From assembly GCA_030149115.1 (NCBI GenBank), contig JASBSE010000418.1, positions 1 through 32,931 of the forward strand: a DNA stretch of 32,931 nucleotides, written 5' to 3'. The notes below the pieces were generated by a model. It was not told the origin of the DNA. It searched no databases and saw only the letters and a program-made list of their open reading frames with translations. Positions 1,421 through 32,931 of the stretch are shown here, piece after piece; position 1 is the stretch's first letter; each line of letters opens with the position of its first letter. Origin of the DNA: Winogradskyella sp. Lineage in GTDB: Bacteria; Bacteroidota; Bacteroidia; Flavobacteriales; Flavobacteriaceae. The position numbers and the translations under genes are program-made.

Positions 1421-1422
1421 GC

Positions 1423-2244: not shown

Positions 2245-2249
2245 GGATT

Positions 2250-3077: not shown

Positions 3078-3112
3078 AAAAATACTATTTTTACAACAGT
3101 GAAATTACAAGT

Positions 3113-3871: not shown

Positions 3872-3872
3872 T

Positions 3873-4631: not shown

Positions 4632-4719
4632 AGTACAAAATTACAATTAGTTTATAACTTTTACTTTAATTTAGCCAATATTGAAACAAATCTATAACGA
4701 CTTTTGAGACCATATAAAA

Positions 4720-5616: not shown

Positions 5617-5621
5617 TAAGG

Positions 5622-11683: not shown

Positions 11684-11706
11684 AACTAAGCACAACCAAC
11701 CACATC

Positions 11707-12643: not shown

Positions 12644-15600
12644 ATGAAAAAGAAATACGCCTTACTATTTGCATTTTTTTATTGTGTTTTTACAATGGCA
12701 CAAGAAGAAACTACAAACTGGGCTTTTGGTAACCAAGCTGGATTAAATTTTGACTTAACAACAGGTAATGTTGTTCCTATTTCAACATCAATAAGTACTT
12801 CCGAAGGCTGCTCTACTATCTCCGATGAAAATGGTATTTTGCAATTTTATACGGATGGACGTACAGTATGGAATCGTAATCATCAAATTATGCCTAATGG
12901 TGATTACTTTGGTGATACAGGGTTACTCGGAGATCCATCCAGTACTTCCTCTGGAGTAATTGTACCACATCCTACAAATGACAATTTATATTACATCTTT
13001 ACGGTAGATGAACCTCATCACAATAATGCATGGGCAGCACCTAATCAAGGTCCTGCTGATGAAAATGGAAATCCTATAAATTTTTATGAAGAAACTTATG
13101 GCGACTTTCAATCGGTACCTAATGATGATGACGGATTTAATAATGGTTTTAATTACTCATTAGTAGACATGACTCTCAATGGAGGTTTTGGAGATGTTGT
13201 TGCTTCAGAAAAGAATATCCACTTGGTAACTTATGACACTTCTCAACCCGACCAAGAACTCTATAAATGTGCAGAAAAAATAACCGCCGTTCAAGGGGCA
13301 GACTGCGAAACAATGTGGGTTATAACTCAATTTGTGGACACCTTCTATGCATTTAAAATAGATGCTAATGGTTTTAATGATTTAACCCCAGTTACTTCAA
13401 CTTTAACACCAAACATTACAACACAAGGTTATAGAAGAAATGGTATTGGTTATATGAAATCCTCACCTGATGGTAACAAAATAGCTGTTTGCCATGCCCA
13501 AAATGGTGTGTTTCCAAGTGATGATGATGCAGCACCAAGCACTGGTAGTTTTTGGCTCTATGATTTTGACAATGAAACAGGGCAAGTTAGTAATCCTGTG
13601 AATTTAGTATCTAATATGCAAAGTTATGGTACTGAGTTTTCTGCTGACTCTAAAAAACTATATGTAACAAATAATAATGTAGTAAGGCAGTTTGACCTTG
13701 ATAATAATAATGCTGAGACCATAGTATTTCAAGGCACACAGTTTATCTCATCTATGCAGCTAGGTCCTAACAACAAAATATATGTATGTAATGGACAAAG
13801 TCAAAATAGCCTTGATGTTATTGAAAATCCTGGTGAAGCCGGTTTAGCATGTAACTACAACCAAGGTGGTCAACCTTTGGCTAGTGGCACTAGTGCCACC
13901 TTAGGGTTACCCCCTTTTATTACTTCTCTACTTGGATTTGAAATAGACATCATTAGAAACGGAATTAGTACCTCGGAATTAAGTTTGTGTACTGGAGATA
14001 ATTACACCTTACAGGCTGATGAAATTACAGGTGCCGATTATGTTTGGTCCTTTGATGGTACTCCTATTGCTGGAAATAATCAAGCCCAGTTAATAATAGA
14101 TTCTCCAGGTTTTTATGAAGTTTACATAGAACCTAACAATGGAGATTGTCCCATAGAAGGTAGTGCTGTTGTAGGTGTTTTTGATATTCCTGTAGCTAAC
14201 ACAGTTTCTAATGTTACCGTTTGTGATGATTCTATAAACGATGGTATTGTTAGCGGTTTAGACTTTACAGATAAAAATGATGAGGCCCTCTTAATGCAGT
14301 CCCCTGCACAGTACAATGTACGTTATTTTGAATCGATGGATAATGCTATTAATCTCGAAAATGAAATCAACTTTCCTTACACAAACATTAGTAGTCCTCA
14401 ACCAATTTTTGTAAGAGTAGAAAACTCAGATAATACCAATTGTTTTGACATAACAAATTTTGAGCTTGAAGTCATTAGTACTCCACAAATTGTTCAAATT
14501 AATAATATTGAATTTTGTGATAACGAAGGAGATCCAACAGATGGAATTGCAACCATAGAATTAGGTGATTTAATTGCACCTATAAGAGGTGATCAGTCTG
14601 AAACCGAAACCAATATTACCTTTCATTCTTCACAACAAGATGCTGATGACAATACAGATCAGCTACCTCTAACATACACCACAAATTCTGGTGAAATTTT
14701 TATTAGAATTGAAAACACCAATAACACAAATTGTTATAGCACAGGAAGTTTTATTCTTGATGTTAATGACGCACCTATAGCAAACGATATTACAATTTTG
14801 CAGTGTGATGAAGATGGTATACCAGAAGGATTCACATCCTTTAACATTAATCTGTTTAATGATGATGTTATAAATAACGAACCAAACCGAAATGTAACCT
14901 ATTACTTATCTCAAGTAGATGCAGAAAATGAAGAAAACGAAATTGATGCTGATGCTTTTGAAAATTTCTTTAACCCTCAAATCGTTTATGCTAGAGTTAT
15001 TAATACAAATACTGGCTGTGTAAGCTATAGTGAAGTTTCGTTAGAAGTAAGCACAACCTCGTCAAACGACACGAGTTTAGTTGCTTGCGATACTGATGGT
15101 ACAGAAGATGGTTTTATGGCATTTAGTCTTATTGCATCAAACCCAATAGTCTTGGCTGGTGCACCTGCAGGACTAGAGGTGCAATACTATGAAACCTATG
15201 AAGATGCGCTTTTAGAAAATAATGCACTTAGCGATACTTACACTAATACAACTCCTTATAATCAAATCATCTATGCACGCGTAGAGAATTCTAACGCATG
15301 TTATGGTATAAGTGAAATAGAACTTATTGTGAATGAACTACCAGATATTGAAACTGAATTTGAAACACTATACTGTATTAACAGTTATCCTGAAACCATT
15401 GTGTTAGATGCAGGAATTATTGACGACTCACCTAGTAATTACACCTACTCTTGGTCTACAACAGAAACTACATCTACAATTGAAGTTAATGAGCCTGGCA
15501 CATATACCGTAACTGTTTTTAATAGCAACAATTGCAGCAAACAAAGAACTATAACTGTTTTACCATCCAATATTGCTACTATAGATAATATTGAAATTGT

Positions 15601-16051
15601 TGACGCCTCAAACAATAATTCTATAACCGTTTTAGTTTCTGGTGAAGGTGATTACGAATATGCGTTAGATGATATTAATGGTCCTTATCAAGATTCTAAT
15701 GTATTTGAAGATATTTCACCAGGTCTCTACACAGTATTTGTTAGAGATAGAAACGATTGTGGAATTTCAGAAGAGCTGGTTTCAGTTATTGGTTTTCCAA
15801 AATTCTTTACACCAAATGGTGATGGCACTAACGAGTTTTGGCAAGTAAGAGGCATTAATAATCAGTTTCAAGCTAATTCTTTAATTCTTATTTTTGACCG
15901 TTACGGAAAACTTTTAACAAAGCTTAATCCTCTTGGTCCTGGTTGGGATGGTAGATACAATGGTGCTAACATGCCTGCAAGCGATTACTGGTTTAAAGTA
16001 GAATTAGAAGATGGAAGAACTTTTACAAGTCATTTTGCATTAAAACGATAA
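12644..16051 (+). CDS. T9SS type B sorting domain protein: beta-propeller-like head, about 4 stalk repeats, gliding-motility-associated C-terminus
   Basis: Start moved from 12590 to the ATG at 12644, which begins a signal peptide MKKKYALLFAFFYCVFTMAQ; C-terminus PKFFTPNGDGTNEFWQVRGI...IFDRYGKLL...GWDG...ASDYWFKV. Confidence 0.88.
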   Translation: MKKKYALLFAFFYCVFTMAQEETTNWAFGNQAGLNFDLTTGNVVPISTSISTSEGCSTISDENGILQFYTDGRTVWNRNHQIMPNGDYFGDTGLLGDPSSTSSGVIVPHPTNDNLYYIFTVDEPHHNNAWAAPNQGPADENGNPINFYEETYGDFQSVPNDDDGFNNGFNYSLVDMTLNGGFGDVVASEKNIHLVTYDTSQPDQELYKCAEKITAVQGADCETMWVITQFVDTFYAFKIDANGFNDLTPVTSTLTPNITTQGYRRNGIGYMKSSPDGNKIAVCHAQNGVFPSDDDAAPSTGSFWLYDFDNETGQVSNPVNLVSNMQSYGTEFSADSKKLYVTNNNVVRQFDLDNNNAETIVFQGTQFISSMQLGPNNKIYVCNGQSQNSLDVIENPGEAGLACNYNQGGQPLASGTSATLGLPPFITSLLGFEIDIIRNGISTSELSLCTGDNYTLQADEITGADYVWSFDGTPIAGNNQAQLIIDSPGFYEVYIEPNNGDCPIEGSAVVGVFDIPVANTVSNVTVCDDSINDGIVSGLDFTDKNDEALLMQSPAQYNVRYFESMDNAINLENEINFPYTNISSPQPIFVRVENSDNTNCFDITNFELEVISTPQIVQINNIEFCDNEGDPTDGIATIELGDLIAPIRGDQSETETNITFHSSQQDADDNTDQLPLTYTTNSGEIFIRIENTNNTNCYSTGSFILDVNDAPIANDITILQCDEDGIPEGFTSFNINLFNDDVINNEPNRNVTYYLSQVDAENEENEIDADAFENFFNPQIVYARVINTNTGCVSYSEVSLEVSTTSSNDTSLVACDTDGTEDGFMAFSLIASNPIVLAGAPAGLEVQYYETYEDALLENNALSDTYTNTTPYNQIIYARVENSNACYGISEIELIVNELPDIETEFETLYCINSYPETIVLDAGIIDDSPSNYTYSWSTTETTSTIEVNEPGTYTVTVFNSNNCSKQRTITVLPSNIATIDNIEIVDASNNNSITVLVSGEGDYEYALDDINGPYQDSNVFEDISPGLYTVFVRDRNDCGISEELVSVIGFPKFFTPNGDGTNEFWQVRGINNQFQANSLILIFDRYGKLLTKLNPLGPGWDGRYNGANMPASDYWFKVELEDGRTFTSHFALKR
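13884..13899. repeat. 16-bp perfect palindrome within coding sequence
   Basis: GTGGCACTAGTGCCAC. Confidence 0.7.
14190..15340 (+). repeat. about 4 protein-level stalk repeats
   Basis: Recurring VCDDSINDG.., FCDNEGDPTDG.., QCDEDGIPEGF.., ACDTDGTEDGF.. each followed by DA...PQ.IYARVEN...C; boundaries approximate. Confidence 0.75.
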
Positions 16052-16053
16052 TA

Positions 16054-18513
16054 TTGAAACCAAATCTATCACTTTATAAAAATCTATTAGCTCTAGCTAT
16101 ATCATGTTTTAGTATCTTTTGCTATAGCCAAGAACCAAACGATTGTGTTAATGCTATTACAGTCTGCGGAAACTCAACACTAGAACTTGATGCTCAAGGT
16201 ATTGGTGTCCAAGAAGTAGAAGGCTTGAATTTATGCGGGAGCAGAGAAAATAACAGTATATGGCTCGAAGTGACTATAGCTACATCAGGAACTTTAGCAT
16301 TCACTCTAACACCTGCAAGCACAAACATTTCCGAGGATTATGATTTCTTTTTATTTGGTCCAAATGTTACCTGCGGAAATATTGGACAGGCCGTAAGGTG
16401 TTCTACAACAAACCCACAAGCAGCAAATCAAGGTAACAATCTCACAGGAATGAGTCCAGACGATCCGGATCCTGATGAAGGTCCAGGAGCTGATGGTGAT
16501 AGCTTTGTAAGCGATTTAGATGTACAGGCAGGAGAAACCTATTTTTTAGTTATTGATCGTCCAATAGGAAATAGTCCTTTTTCCATAGAGTGGACTGGTA
16601 CAGCGACATTCCCAGAAAGTCCTTCAAATCCGGTTTTAACAAACCCGAACATTACAAGTTTACCACCATTAGAACTTTGTGATAATGTTGCACCTTTTGA
16701 TGATTTAATCACAGAAATTGATCTCACTACACTTAGACAAGATGTTATTAATGGTGAAGGTGATGTTGCTGTAAGTTTTCATAATACTGAAAATGACGCT
16801 AACATTAACATTAATCCTTTAGGAGATATTTTTACTAGTTTTTTTAGTACTCAGACCGTTTTTATACGCATAGAGAATACAACCACAAATTGTTTTATTA
16901 TTAATACAATGGTTGTTAATGTTTCTTCATTTTCAAATTTTAATCTACCAACAATCTATGAGGTTTGTGATGACGACACAGATGGTGATGACCAAAATGG
17001 GCAAACAACATTTGATTTCGATGTAAAAACTCAAGAAATCACTAATGGCATTTTGGGTGCAAATTTTAACATAAGTTATTATTTATCAGAAAGTGATGCT
17101 ATAGCTAATACTTCAGCTTTACCAACTATTTATACTAACACTGTAGCAACTCCAACCGAAATTTTTGCTAGAATTGAAGATATAAACAGTGGCTGTATTG
17201 GTTTTACCTCGTTTGATATTGTTGTAGCCGCCAAGCCAATTGCTAATGACGTATCGCTAATACAATGTGATGAAGATGGTATCCCAGAAGGTTTTACCAC
17301 ATTCAATCTTAATGAAATATCCGGAGACATTACTAACGGAGATTCAAGCGCAGATGTATCCTACTACCTATCTCAATTAGATGCAGAAAATGACGAAAAT
17401 GAAATTAATGCCAGTGCTTTTGATAATTTCTTCAATCCACAAATTGTGTACGCAAGAGTTACCAATACTTCAACAGGTTGCGTAAATTTTAGTGAAGTTT
17501 CTTTGGAAGTGAGTACCACATCTTCTAACAATGCTAGTATTGCTATATGCGATGACGATGGCAATGAGGACGGTTTTGCACTTTTCAACCTTAATAATAC
17601 CAATGCCATTGTGCTCGCTGGAGCACCTGTTGGTTTAGATCTTCAATATTTTGAAACCTATGAAGATGCCCTGGTTGAAACTAATCCGCTTGGCACAAAT
17701 TTCACAAATACCATTCCTTATAATCAAACGATTTATGCTCGCGTTGAAAACTCCAATGCTTGTTATGGAATAAGTGAAGTTGCACTTACCGTTTACGAAC
17801 TTCCAAATATTGAAACCGAATTTGAAACGCTGTACTGTCTCAATAGTTTCCCTGACACAATTGTTTTAGATGCTGGTATTATTAATGACTCACCGAGCAA
17901 CTATTTATTCAATTGGTCAACTGGTGAAGACACAGCCACCATAGAAGTTGATGCGCCAGGCACGTACAATGTTAGGGTTAGCAATGTCAATGGCTGTTTT
18001 AAAGACAGAACCATTACAGTTTTACCATCTAATATTGCAACTATAGAAAACATTGAAGTCGTTGACGCATCTAATAATAATTCAATTACAGTTTTAGTTT
18101 CTGGTGAAGGTGATTATGAATATGCCTTAGATGATGTTGATGGACCTTACCAAGATTCTAATGTTTTTGAAGACGTATTACCAGGATTATATACAGTATT
18201 TGTGAGAGATAAAAATGACTGTGGCATTGCGGATGAATTAGTATCGGTTATTGGTTTTCCTAAATTTTTCACACCAAATGGTGATGGTACAAACGAATTT
18301 TGGCAAGTCAAAGGAATAAATAATCAGTTTCAGCCAAATACCAGTATCTTAATTTTTGATCGTTACGGTAAATTGCTAGTAGAACTCAACCCGCTTGGTG
18401 GAGGTTGGGACGGCACTTATAAAGGAAAAAAAATGCCAAGTAGCGATTATTGGTTTAAAGTACAGCTAGAAGATGGTCGCGTCTTTACCAGTCATTTTAG
18501 TTTGGTGCGATAA
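16054..18513 (+). CDS. T9SS type B sorting domain protein: pre-peptidase-like head, about 4 stalk repeats, same tail as 12644..16051
   Basis: TTG start 2 nt after the previous stop; signal peptide ...ALAISCFSIFCYSQ; head NSIWLEVTIATSGTLAFTLTP..DYDFFLFGP; C-terminus PKFFTPNGDGTNEFWQVKGI...DYWFKVQLEDGRVF. Confidence 0.88.
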   Translation: MKPNLSLYKNLLALAISCFSIFCYSQEPNDCVNAITVCGNSTLELDAQGIGVQEVEGLNLCGSRENNSIWLEVTIATSGTLAFTLTPASTNISEDYDFFLFGPNVTCGNIGQAVRCSTTNPQAANQGNNLTGMSPDDPDPDEGPGADGDSFVSDLDVQAGETYFLVIDRPIGNSPFSIEWTGTATFPESPSNPVLTNPNITSLPPLELCDNVAPFDDLITEIDLTTLRQDVINGEGDVAVSFHNTENDANININPLGDIFTSFFSTQTVFIRIENTTTNCFIINTMVVNVSSFSNFNLPTIYEVCDDDTDGDDQNGQTTFDFDVKTQEITNGILGANFNISYYLSESDAIANTSALPTIYTNTVATPTEIFARIEDINSGCIGFTSFDIVVAAKPIANDVSLIQCDEDGIPEGFTTFNLNEISGDITNGDSSADVSYYLSQLDAENDENEINASAFDNFFNPQIVYARVTNTSTGCVNFSEVSLEVSTTSSNNASIAICDDDGNEDGFALFNLNNTNAIVLAGAPVGLDLQYFETYEDALVETNPLGTNFTNTIPYNQTIYARVENSNACYGISEVALTVYELPNIETEFETLYCLNSFPDTIVLDAGIINDSPSNYLFNWSTGEDTATIEVDAPGTYNVRVSNVNGCFKDRTITVLPSNIATIENIEVVDASNNNSITVLVSGEGDYEYALDDVDGPYQDSNVFEDVLPGLYTVFVRDKNDCGIADELVSVIGFPKFFTPNGDGTNEFWQVKGINNQFQPNTSILIFDRYGKLLVELNPLGGGWDGTYKGKKMPSSDYWFKVQLEDGRVFTSHFSLVR
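16650..17800 (+). repeat. about 4 protein-level stalk repeats
   Basis: LCDNVAPFDD.., VCDDDTDGDDQNG.., QCDEDGIPEGF.., ICDDDGNEDGF..; boundaries approximate. Confidence 0.72.
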
Positions 18514-18556
18514 ATATTAATCGTAATTTAGACATAACCTAACCAATCCAAGCCAT

Positions 18557-20398
18557 TTGAAACAGGCACATTACATATTTTCTATACTACTTTTGGGCTT
18601 AGTATTACCATTATCTGCTCAAGATATTTCTCTGTTTGAACAATTTAATGGCAGATACGATTATACTGCTATTGGAAACACCTTAAATCAGGCAGAAAAT
18701 AATATAGACCAGAGTTTTTGTTCGCTTTTAGAATCCTCTAGTGCTAACCTTACATTAGATGCAGACAATCAAATTGTAAAAGCATATTTGTATTGGGCAG
18801 GTTCCGGATTTGGTGACACAGAGGTCACTTTAAACGGAACACAAATTTCTAGTCAAGAGATATATACCGTAACCTACAGTGATATTTTTAACGGACAATT
18901 AGAATATTTTTCCTGCTATGCAGACATAACCGATTTAGTTATTAATGAAGGTAATGGGACCTACATGTTTTCAGATATGGATATAAGTGCAGACTTGATG
19001 TCTAATCCGGGTTATTGTAATAACAGAACAAATTTTGGTGGTTGGAGTATTTATGTTATCTATCAAAATGATAACCTTCCTTTAAATCAAGTTAACCTAT
19101 ACCAAGGTTTAGAAATTATTAACCGTAATGTACAAGAAAAAGAAATTATTCTAGACAATATTGATGTCATTGATAATATCGGTGCAAAAATTGGCTTTTT
19201 GGCTTGGGAAGGAGATAATAGTTTAAACTATGGAGAATCTCTATCTGTAAACAACAATGTATTATCTAATCCTCCTTTGAATCTTTCTGACAATGCTTTT
19301 AATGGCACCAACACCTTTACAAATTCTACTACATTTTATAATGCTGACTTAGATGTTTATAATTTAGAAAATAATATAAATATTGGAGATACCTCTGCTT
19401 CAATAAAATTAACTACAGGAGGTATCAATGAAAATGGAGGTTTTAGTGCAGATCTCATTATTTTGAACAATATAATTACAGTACTAAACAGTCAATTACC
19501 TGATGCTACTATAGATGTTAATGATTACATAGTGAATTGTGGAGATAATAGCGTTGAGCTATTTTATACGGTCAACAATTTTAATAGTACAGATGTTTTA
19601 CCAGCCAATACACCAATTGCATTTTACTTAGGCAATCTTCTGGTAGGACAAAGTCAAACCGTAAATAATTTAGATATTGGGGAGTCAGAATCTAACTCTA
19701 CTATTGTAACGATTCCCGAAAACTCTGACCCAAATTTAACCATAACAGCTATTGTCGATGATGATGGTACCATGTCTGGAGTTGTGACAGAAACTAACGA
19801 AGACAACAATATTAATTTTGTTGAAATTGAATTATTAGTAATTCCAGATATTATTACTTTACCTGGTCTTTCAGGTTGTAATGAAGGTTTTGAAACTTCG
19901 ACCTACAATTTGTATGAAGCATTAATTAACCTAGAGTATGAAGAAGAGGATGTCTCTTTTTATCGATCACTTGAGGATTTAGAAACGGCATCAAATCCAA
20001 TTTTAATACCAACCACATATAACAATCTTATAAATCCTGAAACCATCTATGTGAGGATAGAAAGTCCACCATGTTATGAAATTTATCAGTTTCAACTTTA
20101 TATAGAAAATTGCCCACCTTATGTACCTGATGGATTTTCACCAAATGACGATACATATAATGATTGGTTTAACATACAAGGTTTGTATGATATTTTCACA
20201 GAGCACCAACTAAAAATATATAACCGCTATGGTGATATTGTTTTTGAAGGTAATAATGAAAAACCTTGGTTTGGGAAAATTAACAGAGGATTAAACAATC
20301 ATGGCAGTATTGTCCCTGTTGGTACATACTTCTACATTTTAAATCTCAATGATCCTGACTATCGACCAATGGTAGGTTGGGTGTACGTAAATTACTAG
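18557..20398 (+). CDS. T9SS type B / gliding-motility-associated C-terminal domain protein with one stalk-like repeat
   Basis: TTG start; signal peptide IFSILLLGLVLPLSAQ; VKAYLYWAGSGFGDTEVTLNG head; CARDB-like central part; VPDGFSPNDDTYNDWFNIQGL...IYNRYGDIVFEG C-terminus. Confidence 0.85.
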   Translation: MKQAHYIFSILLLGLVLPLSAQDISLFEQFNGRYDYTAIGNTLNQAENNIDQSFCSLLESSSANLTLDADNQIVKAYLYWAGSGFGDTEVTLNGTQISSQEIYTVTYSDIFNGQLEYFSCYADITDLVINEGNGTYMFSDMDISADLMSNPGYCNNRTNFGGWSIYVIYQNDNLPLNQVNLYQGLEIINRNVQEKEIILDNIDVIDNIGAKIGFLAWEGDNSLNYGESLSVNNNVLSNPPLNLSDNAFNGTNTFTNSTTFYNADLDVYNLENNINIGDTSASIKLTTGGINENGGFSADLIILNNIITVLNSQLPDATIDVNDYIVNCGDNSVELFYTVNNFNSTDVLPANTPIAFYLGNLLVGQSQTVNNLDIGESESNSTIVTIPENSDPNLTITAIVDDDGTMSGVVTETNEDNNINFVEIELLVIPDIITLPGLSGCNEGFETSTYNLYEALINLEYEEEDVSFYRSLEDLETASNPILIPTTYNNLINPETIYVRIESPPCYEIYQFQLYIENCPPYVPDGFSPNDDTYNDWFNIQGLYDIFTEHQLKIYNRYGDIVFEGNNEKPWFGKINRGLNNHGSIVPVGTYFYILNLNDPDYRPMVGWVYVNY

Positions 20399-20467
20399 AT
20401 TTGTTAAGATTTTTATCCGTTTATCTTTTTCATTTGCAGGTAAAATAGTCATCAATTAATTTTAAGT

Positions 20468-20660
20468 ATTGTGCGCAGGTTTTATCCTCCCTCTAACCAT
20501 GAGCACACTTCCCTCTTATAATTATTTATCGAAAGCTATGTTTTTCCGATTAAGGAAAACAACAATATGGAGTTTCAGGTTAAGAAACATTATTTGTTGA
20601 GGCTGTAATGTTTTCAGAAATTTCAATTTGGGAGAAAGACCTCTTTTTGAGGTCTTTTTT
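20468..20660 (+). ncRNA. candidate structured RNA (sRNA or 5' leader), family unknown
   Basis: No convincing ORF; hairpins TGTGC/GCACA enclosing CAGGTT/AACCATG, GTTTTTCC/GGAAAAC (20540-20560), GAAACATTA/TAATGTTTTC (20584-20615), ending in an intrinsic terminator. Confidence 0.4.
20635..20660 (+). terminator. intrinsic terminator
   Basis: AAAGACCTC TTTTT GAGGTCTTT followed by TTT: perfect 9-bp stem with T-tract. Confidence 0.85.
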
Positions 20661-20790
20661 GTAAGATAATGATTATAAAACACTTAAAAATGTTAACGTT
20701 TTATGTATTTAATCGTATTTATTTGTATTTAATCTTTATTACCTTTACTTTTCACCCTATAAGCGCACAAAACTATCAGCCCCAAAAAGA

Positions 20791-20798
20791 TAAATTTG
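20791..20798 (+). promoter_or_regulatory. candidate -7 promoter element (TAAATTTG)
   Basis: TAnnTTTG match 24 bp upstream of the ATG at 20823. Confidence 0.5.
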
Positions 20799-20822
20799 TG
20801 AAGCATAAACTTAACCTAACTT

Positions 20823-23800: not shown

Positions 23801-25658
23801 AGATTGTTACGGCACTTCTAGTTTTATAATTGAAGTTGGAACAAACCCTGTTTATAATGAGCCTACTGATTGGTTTGTTTGTGACGATATATCTAACGAC
23901 GGCTCAGAAACTTTTGATTTGTCAACAAAGATTACAGAAATATCAGACGGAATTTCAGACAACTTAAGTGTAACGTTTTACACCTCATTAAATAATGCCG
24001 AAAACAGTATAGATCCTTTACCTCTTGAGTATACCAATACAGTAAATCCGCAAACTATTTTTGTTCAAATTGATAATGGAACAATATGTAATTCTATTAC
24101 GTCTTTTGAATTAAATGTTGTACAAGTACCAGATGTTAATCCTTCAGTACCTTTAATTGGTTGCGATACGGATTATGATGGATTTACGGAGTTTGATCTG
24201 ACCAATGCAGAATTTGATATTTTGGATGTTAGACAAGATGATATCGAAATTACTTATTTTGAAAACTATGAAGATGCTGAGGCCAACATTAATACGATTT
24301 CTAATCCTGAAACCTACACTAACACAAGCAATCCGCAAACAGTTTATATTAAAATAAACAATACGATTTCTAACTGTTATGTATTGGTTCCAATAGATTT
24401 AAGTGTAAACATGCCTCCTGTTATAAATGATTTTCAATCTTATGATATATGTGAAAATGAAGATAATAGTTTCGACTTAACTGAAATTAACGAAGTCATT
24501 ATGGACGAAAGTTTTAATGTAATATTCAGTTACTATACTAACGAAATTGATGCTTACGCAAACGAAAATGCACTAAATACTGATTACACATATTTAACCA
24601 ATAACGATACACTTTTTGCACGTGCTGAATTTAGTACAACGCATTGTTTTACTGTATATGAATTTAATCTCAATGTCAACCCGCTTCCAATTGCCAATCA
24701 ACCAAACGATTTAGTAGCTTGTGATGATGATTATGATGGATTGTTGGACTTTAATTTAACACAGCAGAATGCCCAAATACTTGGTATACAAAACCCAACA
24801 AACTTCACAGTAACTTACCATAATTCTGAGGATGATGCTAACAACAACTTATCTGCTGTAGATGTAGATTACATGGCTTTTGATTCTGAAGTCATATATG
24901 CAAGAGTAGAAAATAATGTAACAGGATGCTATTCCGTAACACAATTTTCTGTTATAATTCATCCTCTACCTGTTATCGATATTGAAGACCAAGTGATTTG
25001 TTTAGACAATTTACCATTAATTGTTTCTGCAAACACTAATAACCCAACTGACCAATACATTTGGTCTACCGGTGAAACTACACCAGAGATTACAATACCA
25101 CAAATTGGAACCTATTGGGTAACAGTAACTTCTGAGTTTGGTTGCGAAAACACCAGAGTGTTTAGTGTAGCAGAATCAGAAGCTGCAACAATAGAAGCCA
25201 CAGAGATTATAGATTTTTCAGACCCTAATAATATCACGGTAACTATTAGCGGTATTGGCGACTACCTCTACCAATTAGATGATGGTGAGCCACAAGAATC
25301 TAACTTTTTTGATAATGTTGGCATGGGCTACCATACCATTACTATAATAGATTTAAACGGCTGCTCTGAAGTAACAAGAGATGTTTTGGTTATAGACATT
25401 CCAAAGCATATGTCACCAAATGGTGATGGTCAATACGACACCTGGCATATTGTTGGTGTAGAAACACTTCCTGGAACCATTATCCATATTTTTGACCGTT
25501 ATGGTAAACACTTAGCGACATTAAGGCACGATAGCCCTGGTTGGGACGGCACTTTAAATGGTCATAAACTACCTGCCAACGATTATTGGTTTGTTGCAAA
25601 TGTAGCAAGAGGGAATCAATTCTTTGAAGTAAAAGGTCATTTCGCTATTCGTCGTTAA
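20823..25658 (+). CDS. giant choice-of-anchor L / T9SS type B sorting domain protein with about 11 stalk repeats
   Basis: Signal peptide; head GSYGYFERGTSNFPFENGIVLSTG...FNYILASEEYFGNFPCQYSDGFAFLIR; C-terminus PKHMSPNGDGQYDTWHIVGVETLPGTIIHIFDRYGKHLATL. Confidence 0.9.
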   Translation: MDYINRSLLLCLCIISSFSFAQQITVDNSISPQNLIENNLIQGCVEVSNISSPSNGSSVGLGSYGYFERGTSNFPFENGIVLSTGNANSAGNSQNAATLNEGNSNWGTDPDLETALGISGTLNATSLEFNFISISNQIQFNYILASEEYFGNFPCQYSDGFAFLIRESGTNAPYTNIALVPGTTTPVNTNTVHDEIVGFCGASNEQYFEGYSLGDTNYNGRTTILSAAATIQPNVEYQIKLIIADQTDENYDSAVFIQGNSFNATVDLGEDFSTCASDVTLNGNIGNPQATYNWYFNDVLIPGENQTTLDTNISGNYRVEIEIPLSGSSCVIEDDINITLSSTQSSDPISDFEVCDDPSNDGIETFDLSTKDAEILASVPTSNYDISYHYSSSEAQNGDNAINSPIQNTTNPQTIYVRIEDTNNGCLAFSTINLIVNSLPNINDPLPLEVCDDQVADGFTTIDLNIKNDEITNGLTNLVVTYHSTLADASIGTNPLPMPYVNTNTNEQVFVSVRDEFTGCISTTTLDITVLDNPVINTDDHYIDACDADHDGFASFDLTSIIPDVLEGLTGVTVTFHETNEDALTGSNPITDATNYTNITSEEQIVYIRVENNTTGCASVTPVELHTNLLLTATNIDDISLCDIDNDGVEEFNFSGIATSIINDLPDEFAIAVEFYLTEDDRDNQVNALDQTVPFIPTSNPQTIYLGLTSATCYDVEQIDLILIPVYEFESIINQTVCDEDQDGITTTDLSQFDTQVTEALDGFSVTYFLTEDDARNNTNVLPNFYTNTSNPFTVYPRITSNETGCSDINFFEITVLEAPVTSTPSDIVICDNDQDGLFTINLLDVIPEVVSSTTDRQISFHTSQTNADNGSNAITNESTYNAQTETVYVRVENTNTGCHSTETLSITVNTLPVFTAIDNYKICEDSSDGFADFIFNTKDTEILNGQTGKQVLYYLNQNDADNRTNAIDKDVAYQNISTPQTIFVRVENLTDQDCYGTSSFIIEVGTNPVYNEPTDWFVCDDISNDGSETFDLSTKITEISDGISDNLSVTFYTSLNNAENSIDPLPLEYTNTVNPQTIFVQIDNGTICNSITSFELNVVQVPDVNPSVPLIGCDTDYDGFTEFDLTNAEFDILDVRQDDIEITYFENYEDAEANINTISNPETYTNTSNPQTVYIKINNTISNCYVLVPIDLSVNMPPVINDFQSYDICENEDNSFDLTEINEVIMDESFNVIFSYYTNEIDAYANENALNTDYTYLTNNDTLFARAEFSTTHCFTVYEFNLNVNPLPIANQPNDLVACDDDYDGLLDFNLTQQNAQILGIQNPTNFTVTYHNSEDDANNNLSAVDVDYMAFDSEVIYARVENNVTGCYSVTQFSVIIHPLPVIDIEDQVICLDNLPLIVSANTNNPTDQYIWSTGETTPEITIPQIGTYWVTVTSEFGCENTRVFSVAESEAATIEATEIIDFSDPNNITVTISGIGDYLYQLDDGEPQESNFFDNVGMGYHTITIIDLNGCSEVTRDVLVIDIPKHMSPNGDGQYDTWHIVGVETLPGTIIHIFDRYGKHLATLRHDSPGWDGTLNGHKLPANDYWFVANVARGNQFFEVKGHFAIRR
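21860..24970 (+). repeat. about 11 protein-level stalk repeats
   Basis: CDDPSNDG, CDDQVADG, CDADHDG, CDIDNDG, CDEDQDG, CDNDQDG, CEDSSDG, CDDISNDG, CDTDYDG, CENEDNS, CDDDYDG at roughly regular spacing; boundaries approximate. Confidence 0.85.
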
Positions 25659-25713
25659 ACACTTACATACAGCAAATTATTACTTAAAACAAAGGAAAGT
25701 ATAAGCTTTTTCC

Positions 25714-25721
25714 TATCTTTG
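25714..25721 (+). promoter_or_regulatory. Bacteroidota -7 promoter element (TATCTTTG)
   Basis: Exact TAnnTTTG, 47 bp upstream of the ATG at 25769, adjacent to the inverted repeat AGGAAA/TTTCCT. Confidence 0.6.
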
Positions 25722-25768
25722 ATTTTAAGAGTACTGAAGTAATACCAAAAGTCCTCTAAAAAAAAGCT

Positions 25769-28700
25769 ATGACAAGGAATAGATTACTTACTCTTCTCCT
25801 AGTTTTGTCGTTTGTGAATTTTTTGTTCTCTCAACAAATATTGACCGACAACTCGCTAACTCCACAACAACTTATCCAAGGTTTAGTAGGTGAAAATTGT
25901 GCTACAGCAAACAACATATCATCACCATATAATGGTAATGTAAATAACATAATCAGTTATGGAAATTTTGAGAGAGGCACCTCTAACTTCCCACTAGAGA
26001 ACGGTATCATATTATCTACTGGAAGTATAACAAAAGCTGGAAATTCCGTCATAACCGAAAACCTGAGTGATGGAGATATAAACTGGGAAACAGATCCTGA
26101 TGTATTAAATATTCTTGGCATTGACCAAACACTTAATGCTACATCTATTCAATTTAACTTCAGTACAGCCAATAATTTTGTGGCCTTTAAATATCTTTTT
26201 GCTTCCGACGAATATCAGCAAGATTACCCTTGTAATTTTAGGGATGTATTTGCTATTTTAATCCGTCCAGCTGGAAGTACTGATTCTTTTGTTAACATAG
26301 CATTGGTACCAGAATCAACAACAGAAGTAAGTACCAATACAATTCATCCAAATATCAATGGCTTTTGCGAAGCCATTAACGAAGACTACTTTCAAGGTTA
26401 CAACTTACCGAGCACCAACTACAATGGGCAAAGTGTTGTGTTAACAGCCAATGCAGACGTTATACCTAATGAAGTCTATGAAATTAAATTTGTAATTGCA
26501 GACCATATCGATCAACGCTTCGATTCTGCTGTTTTTATTGAGGCCGAAAGTTTTGGTGGCGCTGTAGATCTTGGGCCTGATCAAGAAGTTTGCGGTAGTG
26601 ACTTGACGCTCGATGCTACAATTAATAATGCTTCCGCTACTTACGCATGGTTTTTAGATAATACAGTAATAGCAGGAGAAACCAATCCAACACTTCTAGT
26701 TAATGAGTCTGGCACATACAGGGTTGAAATTACAATTCCCAATCCTGACAACAACTGTGTCCTAGAGGATAGTATCACGCTCGAAATAATTCCCTATCAA
26801 GAAGCTGCATCTATTGAAGATATTTCTGTATGTGACCCAGCTCCTAGCGACGGTATTTACGACTTTGATTTTGCACTTTTAAAGAATGACGAAATTTTAG
26901 CTAATTTATCATCACCTAATTATATTATTTCCTACCATGTCACTCAAGAAGATGCACAAAATAATATAAATCCTATTTTAGGCATCTATCAAAACATACA
27001 ACAAGAAGAAACTATTTATGTAAGGATAGAGAGTTTAAATGGTGATTGCTTACAGATAGGAAGTTTTAATGTAATTGTTAATCTTTCTCCCAATACACAA
27101 GAGTATGTAATTGAAGTTTGTGAAGGGCAAATAACCGAAATTACACTAACAGACCTGAGTGATCTTGACTACACAGTTTCTAATTACGAATTTGGCAGAA
27201 CTGTTACATATTATCTAACCGAAGAAGATGCTATAAATCAAGAAAATGCACTTGAAGATTTTCCTTTGCTAGAAGAACCTATTGCATCATTTATTGCAAG
27301 AGTAGAAACTAATGAAAGTGATTGCTACTCTCTTGAGACTATTTATTTTGAATATCAGCAACCTCCAGAATTAGGTGTTGATAAAATAATATTTGATAAT
27401 TGTCTAGATCCTCTATATTGGGAAATAACTGTCACTGAAGATGGATCTATTATTACCGATTTTAATTCAAGGGTCTACTCCTATAATCTAGCTGAATATG
27501 TTGACATTTTAGAGAATCAATATCCTGGTTTTACATTTAGACTTTTAGATTTTATCGCCTCTGTTCCTCCTACAATAAGTTCAAATAATCTTGTAATGAC
27601 TGCCAATTATGGTGTATCTATTGGAGACTACTGTGAAACTCCTGTTGTTATAGAATTCCATAAAAACCTACTCTACACTGTGTTGGGTGAAAATAGATTC
27701 ATCGAAAAATGTGATGACGGTTCAAATGATGGAATTTTAGATTTTAACTTAGAAGAAATAGTTGAGGAGCTTAAACAAGGTTATGACATCGATATTGTTT
27801 TATACGAATCCGAAGAAGACGCAATTGATCAACAAAACCCAATAGATTTATCTACACCCTATACCGTTGTAAATTCTGTAGAACTATTTATTAGAAGCTC
27901 TTACAATGGATGCTCTCATGTTTCAAAACTTGAACTGGGCATTCTAGAATCTACATCATTAACACCGCAGGCAGTTACAACTTGTGGCAATTACAATGAA
28001 GATAGCAATACCACTACAGTTTTTTTACACCAGTTTGATGCTATTATGACTCAAGATATTTTTACCAATAACGTTGAGTACTATTTAACAGAAGCCGATG
28101 CCATAAATGGTGAAAATGTTTTAGGTGAAACTTATGATATTACAGGTAATACGCAGCGTTTTTATGTTAAAGCATCCGATTTATTTCTTGAGTGTGCAGA
28201 TATCACGACCTTAGATGTTACTATACCTAACCAAATTAATCTAGGCACTTTGGAGCCTTTAATTGTATGTAATTATGCTAATGATGGTTTTGAAACGGTT
28301 GATCTTGAAAATTATATTTCAGAAGTTTTTGATGATTATGAAGACTATAACATAACCTATTATTTATCATCAGATGATGCAATCTCAGAAGCATCATCAA
28401 TTGGTAACCCAAGCATGTTTGAAACCGAAAGTATTGAGGTTTTTATTCGACTTCAACTAACATCAGCCATAGACTGTTTTGCTATAGACAGTTTTTATGT
28501 CAATATCATTGCTAATCCCCAAATAGAAAACATTGAAGATATTGCCAATTGCGAATTAGACCCCAACAACCCATCAGATTTTATATTTGAAGAATATGAT
28601 CTTCAAATCATCAACAACCAGCAAGGTATGCAAGTCTTTTATTACGAGACTGAAAACGATGCAATAAATAGAGAGAACGAAATAGATAAAACCGTTCCTT

Positions 28701-30616
28701 ATCAAAATATCTCAAACCCTCAAACAATATATGTTAGGTTAGAAAACCAATCTGGAAACAATTGCTTCACTGTTGCACCAATGCAAATAGAAGTCAGACA
28801 AGCACCAGATTACAATTTCCCATCCGATATTTTTGAATGCGACGTGAATAATACAGGATTTGCAACTACCAATCTTAATAATACAATCCAAGAAATAGAA
28901 CTCGGTAGTACAACAGACTTAAACATTTCTTTTCACGCTACACCACTCAATGCAGAACTAGGCACCAATGCCATTCCATTAAACTACACGGCTACAAGCA
29001 ACCCTCAAATCATTTATGCTAGAATTGAAAATGCAAATTCCGGATGCTATAATGTTGAAACCTTTAGTCTTAATACACTTTCATTACCTGAAGTTACCTA
29101 TGGACAGTCCTTAGTAGCCTGTGGTAATAATTATGACACTTCTGTTGAATGGAATTTAACTGAAATTGAACTGAACATTTTAGATGGAAGACAATACAAC
29201 ATTGACTTTACTTACTTTAATTCTGAAGTCGATGCCCAGAATAATGTTAATGCAATTGCCAATCCAACAACGTATACCAATTTTACCAGCCCAGAAACTC
29301 TTTTTGTCAAGGTTCGTAATGCAACTACAAATTGTTTTTCTGTCGTGCCTTTTGAACTTATTACCAATTCACCTCCTGCAATAAATGACTTTGGGGTTTA
29401 TGACGTATGTGATAATGATGATAATACCGTAGACTTACATGATGTTGATTTGCTGTTGGTAGATAACACTTTCAATATTTTAATAAGTTATTACCAAACC
29501 GTAGTCGATGCCGAAAATGACGATAATGCATTAAGTACAGACTACATCTACTCAAACAACACCGAGAATCTTGTGGCAAGAGTAGAATATACTACCACAG
29601 GTTGTTATGCAATCTATCCGTTTGAATTGAGAATAAATCTACCTCCTATTGCCAATCAACCTATTGACATTGTAGAATGTGACGATAATTTTGATGGACA
29701 GTTAACGGTTGATTTGTCCCAACAGGATACCTCAATTCTAAATGGTCAAAATTCTGATGAGTTATCAGTAAGCTACTATGCTTCTGAAGTCGATGCTATT
29801 GAAAACAGCAATAGCTTATCCAATCAATATGTTACTACAAACAATGAGGTTATTTTTGCAAGGGTCGAAAACAACATGACTGGTTGTTTCAATGTTACTC
29901 AATTTTCGGTTATCATCAATAACAAACCCTTTGTTGATATTGATAACCAAGTGCTTTGTCTCAATGACTTACCTCTTGTAGTTACTGCAGAAACCAATAA
30001 CCCACAAGATAGCTATGTTTGGTCTACCAACGAGACTTCGCCATCAATTGAGATTTCGACTATTGGAACTTATTCCGTAACCGTGACCAATACATTTGGT
30101 TGCCAAACCACATCTTCATTCGAAGTAATAGAATCCGACTCAGCCGAAATAGATGTTGTAGAGACCATAAACTTTGCAGATCCTAACAATATAGTGTTAA
30201 CGGTAACTGGAATCGGGAATTATCTATATCAATTGAACAATTTGCCTTTTCAGACTTCAGGAACGTTCTACAATGTACCCATAGGTTACAATACCGTAAC
30301 CATTATTGACCAAAACGGTTGTGCGCAGATTACCAGAGAGGTTTTGGTCATCGATACTCCTAAGCATATGTCTCCCAACAATGATGGCCAGTATGATACG
30401 TGGCACATTACTGGTGTAGAGACCCTTCCTGGAACGGTCATTTATATCTTTGACAGATATGGCAAGCTTATAAAGACGCTCTTACACAGCTCTCCAGGTT
30501 GGGATGGTAATTATAATGGTAATCCTATGCCAGCTGGCGATTATTGGTTTATTGCCAAGGTAAGACAAGATGGTAATTATTTTGAAGTTAAGGGACATTT
30601 CGGTTTGAGGCGTTAG
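25769..30616 (+). CDS. giant choice-of-anchor L / T9SS type B sorting domain protein, paralog of 20823..25658
   Basis: Signal peptide LLTLLLVLSFVNFLFSQ; head ISYGNFERGTSNFPLENGIILSTG...FASDEYQQDYPCNFRDVFAILIRP; C-terminus PKHMSPNNDGQYDTWHITGVETLPGTVIYIFDRYGKLIKTL. Confidence 0.9.
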   Translation: MTRNRLLTLLLVLSFVNFLFSQQILTDNSLTPQQLIQGLVGENCATANNISSPYNGNVNNIISYGNFERGTSNFPLENGIILSTGSITKAGNSVITENLSDGDINWETDPDVLNILGIDQTLNATSIQFNFSTANNFVAFKYLFASDEYQQDYPCNFRDVFAILIRPAGSTDSFVNIALVPESTTEVSTNTIHPNINGFCEAINEDYFQGYNLPSTNYNGQSVVLTANADVIPNEVYEIKFVIADHIDQRFDSAVFIEAESFGGAVDLGPDQEVCGSDLTLDATINNASATYAWFLDNTVIAGETNPTLLVNESGTYRVEITIPNPDNNCVLEDSITLEIIPYQEAASIEDISVCDPAPSDGIYDFDFALLKNDEILANLSSPNYIISYHVTQEDAQNNINPILGIYQNIQQEETIYVRIESLNGDCLQIGSFNVIVNLSPNTQEYVIEVCEGQITEITLTDLSDLDYTVSNYEFGRTVTYYLTEEDAINQENALEDFPLLEEPIASFIARVETNESDCYSLETIYFEYQQPPELGVDKIIFDNCLDPLYWEITVTEDGSIITDFNSRVYSYNLAEYVDILENQYPGFTFRLLDFIASVPPTISSNNLVMTANYGVSIGDYCETPVVIEFHKNLLYTVLGENRFIEKCDDGSNDGILDFNLEEIVEELKQGYDIDIVLYESEEDAIDQQNPIDLSTPYTVVNSVELFIRSSYNGCSHVSKLELGILESTSLTPQAVTTCGNYNEDSNTTTVFLHQFDAIMTQDIFTNNVEYYLTEADAINGENVLGETYDITGNTQRFYVKASDLFLECADITTLDVTIPNQINLGTLEPLIVCNYANDGFETVDLENYISEVFDDYEDYNITYYLSSDDAISEASSIGNPSMFETESIEVFIRLQLTSAIDCFAIDSFYVNIIANPQIENIEDIANCELDPNNPSDFIFEEYDLQIINNQQGMQVFYYETENDAINRENEIDKTVPYQNISNPQTIYVRLENQSGNNCFTVAPMQIEVRQAPDYNFPSDIFECDVNNTGFATTNLNNTIQEIELGSTTDLNISFHATPLNAELGTNAIPLNYTATSNPQIIYARIENANSGCYNVETFSLNTLSLPEVTYGQSLVACGNNYDTSVEWNLTEIELNILDGRQYNIDFTYFNSEVDAQNNVNAIANPTTYTNFTSPETLFVKVRNATTNCFSVVPFELITNSPPAINDFGVYDVCDNDDNTVDLHDVDLLLVDNTFNILISYYQTVVDAENDDNALSTDYIYSNNTENLVARVEYTTTGCYAIYPFELRINLPPIANQPIDIVECDDNFDGQLTVDLSQQDTSILNGQNSDELSVSYYASEVDAIENSNSLSNQYVTTNNEVIFARVENNMTGCFNVTQFSVIINNKPFVDIDNQVLCLNDLPLVVTAETNNPQDSYVWSTNETSPSIEISTIGTYSVTVTNTFGCQTTSSFEVIESDSAEIDVVETINFADPNNIVLTVTGIGNYLYQLNNLPFQTSGTFYNVPIGYNTVTIIDQNGCAQITREVLVIDTPKHMSPNNDGQYDTWHITGVETLPGTVIYIFDRYGKLIKTLLHSSPGWDGNYNGNPMPAGDYWFIAKVRQDGNYFEVKGHFGLRR
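26810..29930 (+). repeat. about 11 protein-level stalk repeats, including divergent ones
   Basis: CDPAPSDG, CEGQI.., divergent block, CDDGSNDG, CGNYNEDS, CNYANDG, CELDPNN, CDVNNTG, CGNNYDT, CDNDDNT, CDDNFDG; boundaries approximate. Confidence 0.75.
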
Positions 30617-30656
30617 TTATAACCTATACTTAACACTTTTTAATATTTTCTATGCG

Positions 30657-30664
30657 TATCTTTG
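30657..30664 (+). promoter_or_regulatory. Bacteroidota -7 promoter element (TATCTTTG)
   Basis: Exact TAnnTTTG, 18 bp upstream of the ATG at 30683. Confidence 0.65.
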
Positions 30665-30682
30665 CACTCTCTAAAAATTGAG

Positions 30683-32931
30683 ATGAAAAAGGTAGTAAGA
30701 TTCTTTGTGTTTTTTATTTCTCTATTTACCTACTCACAGAATATTGTAGTAGATAGCCAATCCTTTACACCACAACAACTTATAGAAAATATATTAATTG
30801 ACAGTAATTGTATTACTAATATTAATGTAACCAATGTTGTAAGTGGTGATTTTGGTGGCACAGACCAAAGCTATGGCTATTTTGATGCTTCTGGCACAAA
30901 CTTTCCTTTTGAAACTGGTATTGTAATGAGTACTGGTCGATTAGCAAATGTCCCTGGCCCGAACAATAATTTAAGTGATGATGATGCACCTAATTGGGTT
31001 GGCGATCTTGATTTGGAAAATGCACTTAACGAAAGTAACACCTTCAATGCCACAATACTAGAGTTCGATTTTACTGCTGTTGCTCAGCAGGTTAGTTTTC
31101 GTTATCTATTTGCTTCAGAAGAATACCAAGAAAATAATCCAAACAGCTGTCAGTATTCAGACTTATTTGGATTTTTGATTCGACCCACTACTGGGCAAAA
31201 CCAATACGAAAATATTGCATTGGTTCCAGACACCAATACACCTGTAAAGGCCACAACGGTAACTCCTGGTGTTCCTGGGTCTTGTCCACCTCAAAACGAA
31301 TTTTACTTTGGCTCTTACAACGGTAATAATTCACCGATAAATTTTAACGGTCAAACAGCGGTTTTAACAGCAACGGCAAATGTTGTTCCCAATCAGTCCT
31401 ATCATGTAAAGCTAGTCATTGCAGACGAGCAAAATTATCGTTACGATTCTGCTGTTTTTCTTGAGGCTGGTAGCTTTCAATTATCTACAGATTTAGGTCC
31501 AAACCGACTTATTACCACAGGTAATGCATTGTGCGAAGGTGAAACTTTAGAGCTTAATGCAAACAATCCTTCTTTAAGTTCATATAGCTGGTATAAAGAT
31601 GGTGTTTTACAAGAAACTACACCAAACTGTTTGAACTGCGGCTTTTTCACAGTAACCGAACCTGGAACTTATAATGTTGAAGTTACTATTTTAGATGACT
31701 GCATTTCCTACGGAGACATTATTGTTGAATATGCTCCTCTCCCACTTGGTCAAGACTCAATTTTAACGGAATGTGATTTAGATACTGATGGTTTAACGAC
31801 TTATAATCTTTTTGACGCTTCAAATGACCTAACCAACAATGATAATAATCTCGTTGTAGCAGGCTTCTATTTCACAGAGGAAGATGCCACAAACAACACT
31901 AACCCAATAAACAATCCAACGAACTTTCAAAATAGCATATCGTTTCAAAATGTATATGCACGCATTATCAATGCTGCCAATTGTTTTGACGTTGTTGCCT
32001 TGGAATTACAAACCTCAAACAATACAATTTCAATTCCAGATTTAGGCGCTTGTGATGGCATAGACTTAGATGGCTTTGCCACGTTTAGCTTAAGTAATAT
32101 TGAAGCTTCTATCATTGCTCAAATTCCTACAGGTTCAGAAGTAACATATTATGAAACCCTTGAAGATGCTTTAAGTGAAAGCAACCCTTTACCAAATAAT
32201 TACACCAACATAATTGCGGATACTCAAACCATTTTTGTAAAAATTAAAAACGATAATCAGTGTTTCAGCATTTCAACAGCAAACCTTAATGTACTTTACA
32301 CTCCTGTTTTAGAAGCAGACGAAACCTTAATTTATTGTACAAATACGTTTCCTGAAACCATTACACTTCATGGAGGCGTTTTAAATGATTTACCAAACAA
32401 TTACTACTATGAGTGGTACTTTAATGGTGCTTTGACAGATGTTGACACCTCATTCAATGAAATCAATGAAGCCGGAAACTATACAGTTATTGTCACTGAT
32501 CCTAACGGTTGTTCTTCAAGCCGAACACTAACAGTAAACGCATCTGAAACAGCTATTGTTGAAGGTATTTCTATTGAAGGTATTTCGCCAAATAATACCA
32601 TTACCGTCAATGTTACTGGGCAAGGCTTTTACGATTATGCGATTGATGATATTAATGGCTTTTACCAAGAGAGCAATGTATTTACTAATATTTCTGAAGG
32701 TGAACATACCATTTATATAAATGACAGGAATGGTTGTGGCATCGTTGAAGAAACCATAACAATAGTTGGTATTCCAAAATTCTTTACACCAAATGGTGAT
32801 GATGTTAATGACACTTGGCAAATTGTAGGCACCAATACAAATCTCAACCAAATTGAAAGTCTACAGATTTTTGATCGCTACGGAAAAATAATGCTGCAAT
32901 CCTATTCTGGTGGTTTTAGTTGGGACGGAAA
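30683..32931 (+). CDS. choice-of-anchor L / T9SS type B sorting domain protein, 3' truncated by window end
   Basis: Open frame from ATG 30683 to the window end, absent from the ORF track (no stop in window): MKKVVRFFVFFISLFTYSQNIVVDSQSFTPQQLIENILI...GYFDASGTNFPFETGIVMSTG...FRYLFASEEYQ...GIPKFFTPNGDDVNDTWQIVG...IFDRYGK...SWDG. Confidence 0.88.
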   Translation, partial: MKKVVRFFVFFISLFTYSQNIVVDSQSFTPQQLIENILIDSNCITNINVTNVVSGDFGGTDQSYGYFDASGTNFPFETGIVMSTGRLANVPGPNNNLSDDDAPNWVGDLDLENALNESNTFNATILEFDFTAVAQQVSFRYLFASEEYQENNPNSCQYSDLFGFLIRPTTGQNQYENIALVPDTNTPVKATTVTPGVPGSCPPQNEFYFGSYNGNNSPINFNGQTAVLTATANVVPNQSYHVKLVIADEQNYRYDSAVFLEAGSFQLSTDLGPNRLITTGNALCEGETLELNANNPSLSSYSWYKDGVLQETTPNCLNCGFFTVTEPGTYNVEVTILDDCISYGDIIVEYAPLPLGQDSILTECDLDTDGLTTYNLFDASNDLTNNDNNLVVAGFYFTEEDATNNTNPINNPTNFQNSISFQNVYARIINAANCFDVVALELQTSNNTISIPDLGACDGIDLDGFATFSLSNIEASIIAQIPTGSEVTYYETLEDALSESNPLPNNYTNIIADTQTIFVKIKNDNQCFSISTANLNVLYTPVLEADETLIYCTNTFPETITLHGGVLNDLPNNYYYEWYFNGALTDVDTSFNEINEAGNYTVIVTDPNGCSSSRTLTVNASETAIVEGISIEGISPNNTITVNVTGQGFYDYAIDDINGFYQESNVFTNISEGEHTIYINDRNGCGIVEETITIVGIPKFFTPNGDDVNDTWQIVGTNTNLNQIESLQIFDRYGKIMLQSYSGGFSWDG
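31740..32300 (+). repeat. about 2 protein-level stalk repeats
   Basis: ECDLDTDGLTTYNL.., ACDGIDLDGFATFSL.. each with DA...QTIFVKI/NVYARI...C. Confidence 0.7.

Follow-up and report, generated by a model that had tools for sequence, protein, structure and literature searches.

The stretch of DNA analysed here (the window) takes in all 32,931 bases of contig C5, a complete contig of a metagenome-assembled genome (MAG) of Winogradskyella. It carries an array of six consecutive plus-strand genes (g1-g6) encoding proteins of 613-1615 amino acids (aa), each with a type-B C-terminal domain (CTD) of the type IX secretion system (T9SS). Judged from comparison across the family, the array is an old, ordered surface-protein locus of Flavobacteriaceae in which the stalks are fixed and a single slot diversifies. 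The best explanation overall, which we hold with moderate confidence, is that the array encodes fixed-length surface proteins sharing a track-coupled carrier, with a diversifying slot between g4 and g6. Few of the many type-B T9SS proteins have been studied, and the locus provides a family-wide set of them in one place and in fixed order, with a predicted shared carrier and a published movement assay available.

Domain organization of the array proteins

The open reading frame (ORF) calls give g1-g5 as complete genes and g6 as cut by the contig end. All six proteins match TIGR04131/PF13585 above the curated cut-offs, with g3 barely passing TIGR04131 (36.5 versus 35 bits). The N-termini resemble signal peptides by eye (a basic start, a hydrophobic core, and an A/S-Q junction), and an N-terminal helix is present in the AlphaFold2 (AF2) models of g1 and g4. 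T9SS genes in the host genome include those for SprA (in pieces, over the cut-off), PorP/SprF-family proteins, and GldJ. The type-B T9SS export route of the array proteins appears well supported. The original prediction, made from the window alone, of a six-gene same-strand tandem array with type-B CTDs is borne out by the ORFs and these matches, as is, by the domain and repeat profiles, that of modular proteins with differing heads on a common stalk and tail.

The g1 head is modelled with a predicted local distance difference test (pLDDT) score of 85.6, and Foldseek matches it to the propellers 3fgb, 8okv, and 3dsm with target template modelling (TM) scores of 0.55-0.58. The g4, g5, and g6 proteins have heads that clearly belong to the choice-of-anchor L proteins (NF038133; 155, 138, and 164 bits, respectively, against a cut-off of 27; E values from 1e-40 to 1e-48), a family name that carries no functional meaning. 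The beta-propeller and choice-of-anchor L heads had both been foreseen and are supported, whereas the pre-peptidase-like head of g2 and the CARDB head of g3, also foreseen, were given up because neither matches Pfam or the PDB even with orthologues added. Over their last ~560 aa, g1 and g2 are 65% identical, while their heads are unrelated; a propeller head joined to a g2-like tail is found in 26 genes of other genera. These observations uphold head swapping at the scale of the family. Literature searches on choice-of-anchor L, on the array locus, and on gene conversion among such genes found nothing in the collection searched.

Stalk repeats

A repeat profile built from the g4 copies detects 4, 4, 1, 11, 10, and 2 repeats in g1-g6, respectively, all with E values of about 1e-12 or better. 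The counts predicted earlier hold for five genes but not for g5, for which 11 copies had been given. Residues ~527-644 of g5, a non-repeat segment of ~118 aa, lie between canonical copies 2 and 3. Since all 12 of the g5-type genes with 10 repeats in relatives carry the same gap (107-116 aa), g5 retains 11 "positions". The repeat is 94 aa long, and every one of the 32 copies has exactly two cysteines, at two invariant columns; a loose acidic loop pattern occurs near the first cysteine in 22 copies. The paired cysteines would form a disulfide bond, and the repeat may bind calcium. An AF2 model computed with 60 orthologues, covering the head of g4 with its Ig-like domain and two of its repeats, has a mean pLDDT of 89, and the repeats reach about 90-97. 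The predicted order of the repeat is strand-helix-strand-helix-strand-strand, which is not the Ig fold. The repeat has no match in Pfam (32 copies searched singly), the PDB (profile), or NCBIfam (whole proteins); it is, as far as sequence tells, an unnamed domain family.

Grappling hook protein A (GhpA) from Aureispira sp. should be noted (PDB 9flp and related entries). It is the sole PDB match to the g4 CTD (E = 7e-4), and Foldseek places fragments of it among the top neighbours of the models of g4 and g1. GhpA is, however, a single hook protein of 5898 aa, and the array repeat profile has no sequence match to it. GhpA was not used as the fold of the repeat because the matches cross several domains with a query TM score of only about 0.2.

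Copies within one protein are mostly 20-40% identical, and no DNA-level tandem repeat is found in the window. Most repeats in the second half of g4 have their nearest relative within the window in the g5 repeat of matching position, and the final two repeats of g1 are 67-68% identical to the final two of g2. These pairings indicate that g4/g5 and g1/g2 go back to duplications of whole or half genes and not to repeats expanding separately in each gene. Slippage was discarded as the setter of stalk length, since there is no DNA-level repeat and the positional identity of the repeats is kept.

Conservation of the locus and stalk lengths

The order of genes is the same in 16 congeners: permease, propeller gene with 4 repeats, g2-type gene with 4 (not in every genome), g3-type gene with 1, choice-of-anchor L gene with 11, variable slot, and choice-of-anchor L gene with 2, with uvrB soon after in most. 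One congener (G013) is without g2 and g6. Among g4 matches of 89% identity and below, those from Winogradskyella rank first, which makes the host a member of that genus. We then surveyed one genome per genus in 200 genera of Flavobacteriaceae. Matches to g4 with E ≤ 1e-60 were found in 106 genera and were near full-length in about 71. In 20-kb stretches taken around 60 of the matches, the ABC transporter adjoins the array in 52 genera, and uvrB is within reach in 28.

A choice-of-anchor L gene with exactly 11 repeats is present in 59 of these 60 genera and in all 16 Winogradskyella genomes. The 60 genera were picked by long g4 matches, which biases the sample to similar length; the same search also caught genes with 17 repeats (G066, G180, and G190), so that other lengths were not invisible to it. 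In the survey of 200 genera, one genus (G070) has a shorter g4 frame of 1445 aa and another (G181) a frame with a stop. Among 75 g4 orthologues, 803 of 825 repeats (97%) best match the window repeat at the same position. Conservation of g4 is 0.76 in the head, 0.72-0.74 in the CTD region, and 0.52-0.65 in the repeats. Because the 11-repeat stalk is kept copy by copy across about 60 genera, both its length and its individual domains are likely to be under selection and not free to vary.

The original prediction held that reach is set by a variable repeat number, and named identical architecture and copy number across genera as evidence to the contrary. Just that is found for g4, and nearly so for the others; each paralogue class largely has its own near-fixed stalk length. 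Length-variable adhesins, whose reach would be adjusted as recombination adds or removes repeats and whose specificity would lie in swapped heads, are accordingly a very unlikely account of the array as a whole, and for g4 this account is largely refuted. Paralogues do differ in repeat number, g5-type genes have 10, 11, 14, or 17 repeats, and propeller genes across genera have 1, 2, 4, 6, or 9. However, besides the constancy of g4 in number and position, there are no DNA-level repeats to slip on, and in g5 it is the middle that varies while the head is conserved.

Carrier and CTD classes

No SprF gene adjoins the array genes, either in the window or in relatives. Type-B substrates are exported together with a carrier of the SprF family, which decides their destination, and in Flavobacterium johnsoniae three orphan type-B substrates use one carrier, their CTDs deciding between moving and static behaviour (PMC12618676). 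SprF carries a C-x-C motif in its periplasmic tail that disulfide-bonds GldK and is needed for gliding (PMC12635249).

In the complete genome of a relative (G026), all nine clear SprF-family genes adjoin other type-B genes. When CTDs paired with carriers were ranked by a profile of the g1, g2, g4, and g5 CTDs, the top 11, each from a distinct neighbour pair, all end in HF-x-L-x-R, and all 11 of their carriers have C-x-C in the last 25 residues. The ending of the array class overall is HF-x-L/I-x-R. Among the other CTD classes, none of 32 carriers has C-x-C, and five have C-x-x-C. The paired CTD of G026 nearest to the array (58% identical to the g1/g2 CTDs) lies beside a carrier with the tail ECNCPAIN, and a CNC-tailed carrier with the same tail is encoded in the genome of the window (C136). 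This carrier is single-copy in 168 of the 200 genera, with two copies in one genus, and it is present in 68 of 71 genera with near-full-length g4, one of the 68 being weak (E = 9e-58). C-x-C is kept in 18 of 20 sampled tails, and an error in the reading frame may account for one of the two that lack it. No type-B CTD was found beside the CNC-tailed carrier of G183 (L221), as reported for Fjoh_1677. A PDB search with the CNC-tailed carrier gave no relatives.

The g3 CTD, which ends in VGWVYVNY, belongs to a different class; it scores 29 bits on the array-CTD profile and falls among the other classes. Window g6 is truncated, and in its G026 orthologue the nearest CTD is an orphan (51%), followed by the same carrier-paired CTD as above (47%).

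These features can be compared with known systems. In SprB/SprF of F. johnsoniae, too, a very long surface protein with repeats ends in a type-B CTD and the carrier is of the PorP/SprF family, and both SprF, known here by description (PMC12635249), and the proposed array carrier have the periplasmic C-x-C tail. SprB, however, has an adjoining carrier gene, whereas the array has none, and the array proteins are far shorter. The F. johnsoniae orphan substrates resemble the array in lacking an adjacent SprF gene and in apparently sharing one carrier. The likeness is by description, and in Winogradskyella the proposed carrier adjoins another type-B gene, unlike the lone carrier of the orphans.

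The array proteins might instead be static surface or matrix adhesins, anchored in the envelope for cell-cell or surface attachment and uncoupled from the gliding track, which we consider somewhat unlikely. Static foci are reported for one or more type-B CTDs of F. johnsoniae, and the Fjoh_1123 CTD is static in most cells (PMC12618676); the g3 CTD is in a non-C-x-C class. On the other hand, the CTDs of g1, g2, g4, and g5 are in the class that adjoins C-x-C-tailed carriers, and the array lacks the PorE-type companions that static systems have in their operons.

Two further observations concern carriers and their CTDs. In G026, two distant type-B genes (L233 and L239) have CTDs that are 99% identical; in several assemblies the carrier beside this CTD is no more than ~230 bp from the end of its contig, as though assembly had failed at the repeated CTD. 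In G097, three equal-scoring SprF-like genes (304 aa, 304.9 bits; e.g. L204, L210, and L216) lie beside different type-B CTDs, and the trio apparently represents recent copies of a type-B/carrier pair.

Variable slot between g4 and g6

In congeners, this slot holds 0-3 genes of the repeat numbers given above for g5-type genes. The head and tail of window g5 are 78-87% identical to those of relatives' g5, whereas the central block of ~500 aa is 32-42% identical (measured at residues 430-900). This is the reverse of the pattern predicted from specificity residing in the head: the g5 head and tail are conserved and the mid-stalk changes. For comparison, g1 of G026 is 15-80% identical to window g1 in the head and about 90% in the tail.

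In the complete genome of G026, the neighbours g5a and g5b share 97.8% of positions in their first 1314 bp and 91.8% in their last 2182 bp, with 39% aa identity in the middle. At four-fold sites, the two g5 heads within G026 are 92% identical, as against 54% between g5a of G026 and its orthologue in G001; the middles of these orthologues are 86% identical. The contrast at four-fold sites and the likeness of the middles indicate that neighbouring copies have had their ends homogenized, with middle types retained across species. We regard this pattern of like ends and divergent middles as the signature of recombination in relatives. Taken alone, G026 would look identical if the gene had been duplicated recently and one middle then replaced. 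G035 has the same pattern in the tail (97% nucleotide identity; head, 67%). The older pairs in G005, G002, and G004 have lower middles, without homogenization. Recombinational diversification among tandem copies, which had been raised as a possibility, thus finds its confirmation in the homogenized ends of relatives (G026 and G035).

The host assembly (3.38 Mb in 626 contigs, 79% complete, 5% contamination) also contains parts of a second strain's array, with g4, g5-type, and g6 alleles (contigs C304, C567, C462, and C156; loci L181, L015, L182, and L183). Identity to the window is 89% for g6 and 89-93% for g4, and the g5-type allele on C156 has a middle type like that of g5b in G026. The MAG mixes at least two close strains.

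A slot with homogenized ends and divergent middles is a place to seek recognition or escape in marine flavobacteria. The slot could be chiefly a recognition or escape locus, the central block being seen by phage, protists, or neighbours (kin discrimination) and the proteins serving mainly as identity markers; this is quite unlikely in our estimation. The gene number in the slot varies among close relatives, the middle diverges while the ends are homogenized, and the second-strain alleles of the bin carry different middle types, all as such a locus would have it. A relaxed, fast-evolving stalk would nevertheless appear equally variable, and the persistence of classes a and b between species does not amount to extreme hypervariability.

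Proposed mechanism

In the explanation that we prefer, each protein has a head, a stalk of ~94-aa domains that is near-fixed in length for its paralogue class and would be stabilized by disulfides, and a type-B CTD, and would be exported by the T9SS. The array proteins, none having its own SprF-like carrier alongside, would share one genome-encoded carrier, whose periplasmic C-x-C tail would couple to the GldJ/GldK gliding track. Thus g1, g2, g4, g5, and probably g6 would be moving adhesins presenting their heads at different fixed distances from the cell, and g3, with its other CTD class, would be anchored differently. Tandem g5-type copies would exchange and homogenize their ends by recombination and keep differing central blocks. 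The analysis itself shows the architecture, the conservation, the fixed repeat number, the variable slot, and the association of CTD class with carrier. We infer the identity of the carrier, movement, adhesion, the disulfides, and the binding target of the variable block, and coupling of the array proteins to the gliding track is likewise deduced from sequence. A fuller version, in which fixed-length gliding adhesins on one carrier are combined with a recombining recognition slot whose central blocks set partner or strain specificity, is unlikely to hold in all its parts.

Several points weigh against this explanation. The 11 carrier pairs represent two carrier lineages in five related genomes and are not independent. 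Conserved CTD motifs are necessary but not sufficient for carrier specificity (PMC12618676), and the array's choice of carrier is read from CTD similarity. The CNC-tailed carrier is also present in many genomes without g4. The occurrence of a g3-like CTD of another class inside the array means that the set need not share one fate. Finally, the recombination signature of g5 comes from relatives, not from the window itself.

Region between g3 and g4

The gap between g3 and g4 contains a terminator-like hairpin and a tandem direct-repeat element (Table 1). The hairpin suggests that g1-g3 and g4-g6 may be carried on separate transcripts. The element can be written as TGYRTTTMATCG-N8-TGYRTTTMATC. 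A search of 3.57 Mb of strand yielded 66 half-site pairs, where base-shuffled sequence gives about 20; of the 66, 38 directly precede a gene carrying at least nine repeats. With a stricter pattern, 21 sites are found in five genomes, and none with its reversed control. Further sites number 3-6 per Winogradskyella genome, several of them lying 60-115 bp upstream of genes whose products look secreted. A pair of direct repeats spaced by roughly two turns of the helix presumably resembles LytTR-type operators. A TGTTAAC block that is conserved in the genus was dropped, as it occurs family-wide in only 4 of 60 cases, and the tandem TGYRTTTMATC element replaced it. Sigma-70 promoters in the gap show no excess over shuffles, and an Rfam search gave no match.

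Feature coordinates and flanking genes

Table 1. Features of the array and its left neighbour (window positions)
Feature	Position	Strand	Repeats (nt)	Description
ABC transporter	10754-12540	+		ATPase (10754-11683) and permease (11707-12540); from ORFs; conserved left neighbour of the array
g1	12644-16051	+	14186-15337	Putative signal peptide, then a beta-propeller head (~19-430), an Ig-like domain, 4 repeats, PKD/Ig-like linker, type-B CTD
g2	16054-18513	+	16642-17796	Putative signal peptide, ~180-aa head of no known family, 4 repeats, linker, type-B CTD
g3	18557-20398	+	19832-20104	Putative signal peptide, ~415-aa head of no known family, 1 repeat, type-B CTD
Intrinsic-terminator-like hairpin and U-run	20635-20660	+		In the g3-g4 gap; minimum free energy -19 kcal/mol, z -4.5; no call by a simple scanner
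Tandem direct-repeat element	20704-20734	+		TGTATTTAATCG-N8-TGTATTTAATC; period of 20 bp; 88 bp upstream of the g4 start; also conserved ahead of g4 orthologues
g4	20823-25658	+	21849-24959	Choice-of-anchor L head (36-262), Ig-like domain, 11 repeats, linker, type-B CTD; the array member that is invariant across the family
g5	25769-30616	+	26795-27346, 27674-29920	Choice-of-anchor L head, 10 repeats and ~118-aa non-repeat segment, type-B CTD; in the variable slot
g5 central variable block	27056-28558	+		About residues 430-930; from comparison with relatives' g5
g6	30662-32931	+	31736-32296	Choice-of-anchor L head, Ig-like domain, 2 repeats, start of type-B CTD

The last ~30 aa of g6 are absent; the full g6 of relatives is 791 aa long and is followed by uvrB. 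The left flank has genes for a glycosyltransferase, a tRNA nucleotidyltransferase, and COX15/CtaA, followed by the ABC transporter ATPase and permease. A 353-aa protein without a Pfam match is encoded at 9569-10630 on the minus strand, and a gene of similar size and the same orientation precedes the ABC transporter in many genera. Farther upstream, at 356-6470, genes for a glycosyltransferase, a WaaP-like kinase, and a pyruvyltransferase on both strands form a surface polysaccharide cluster.

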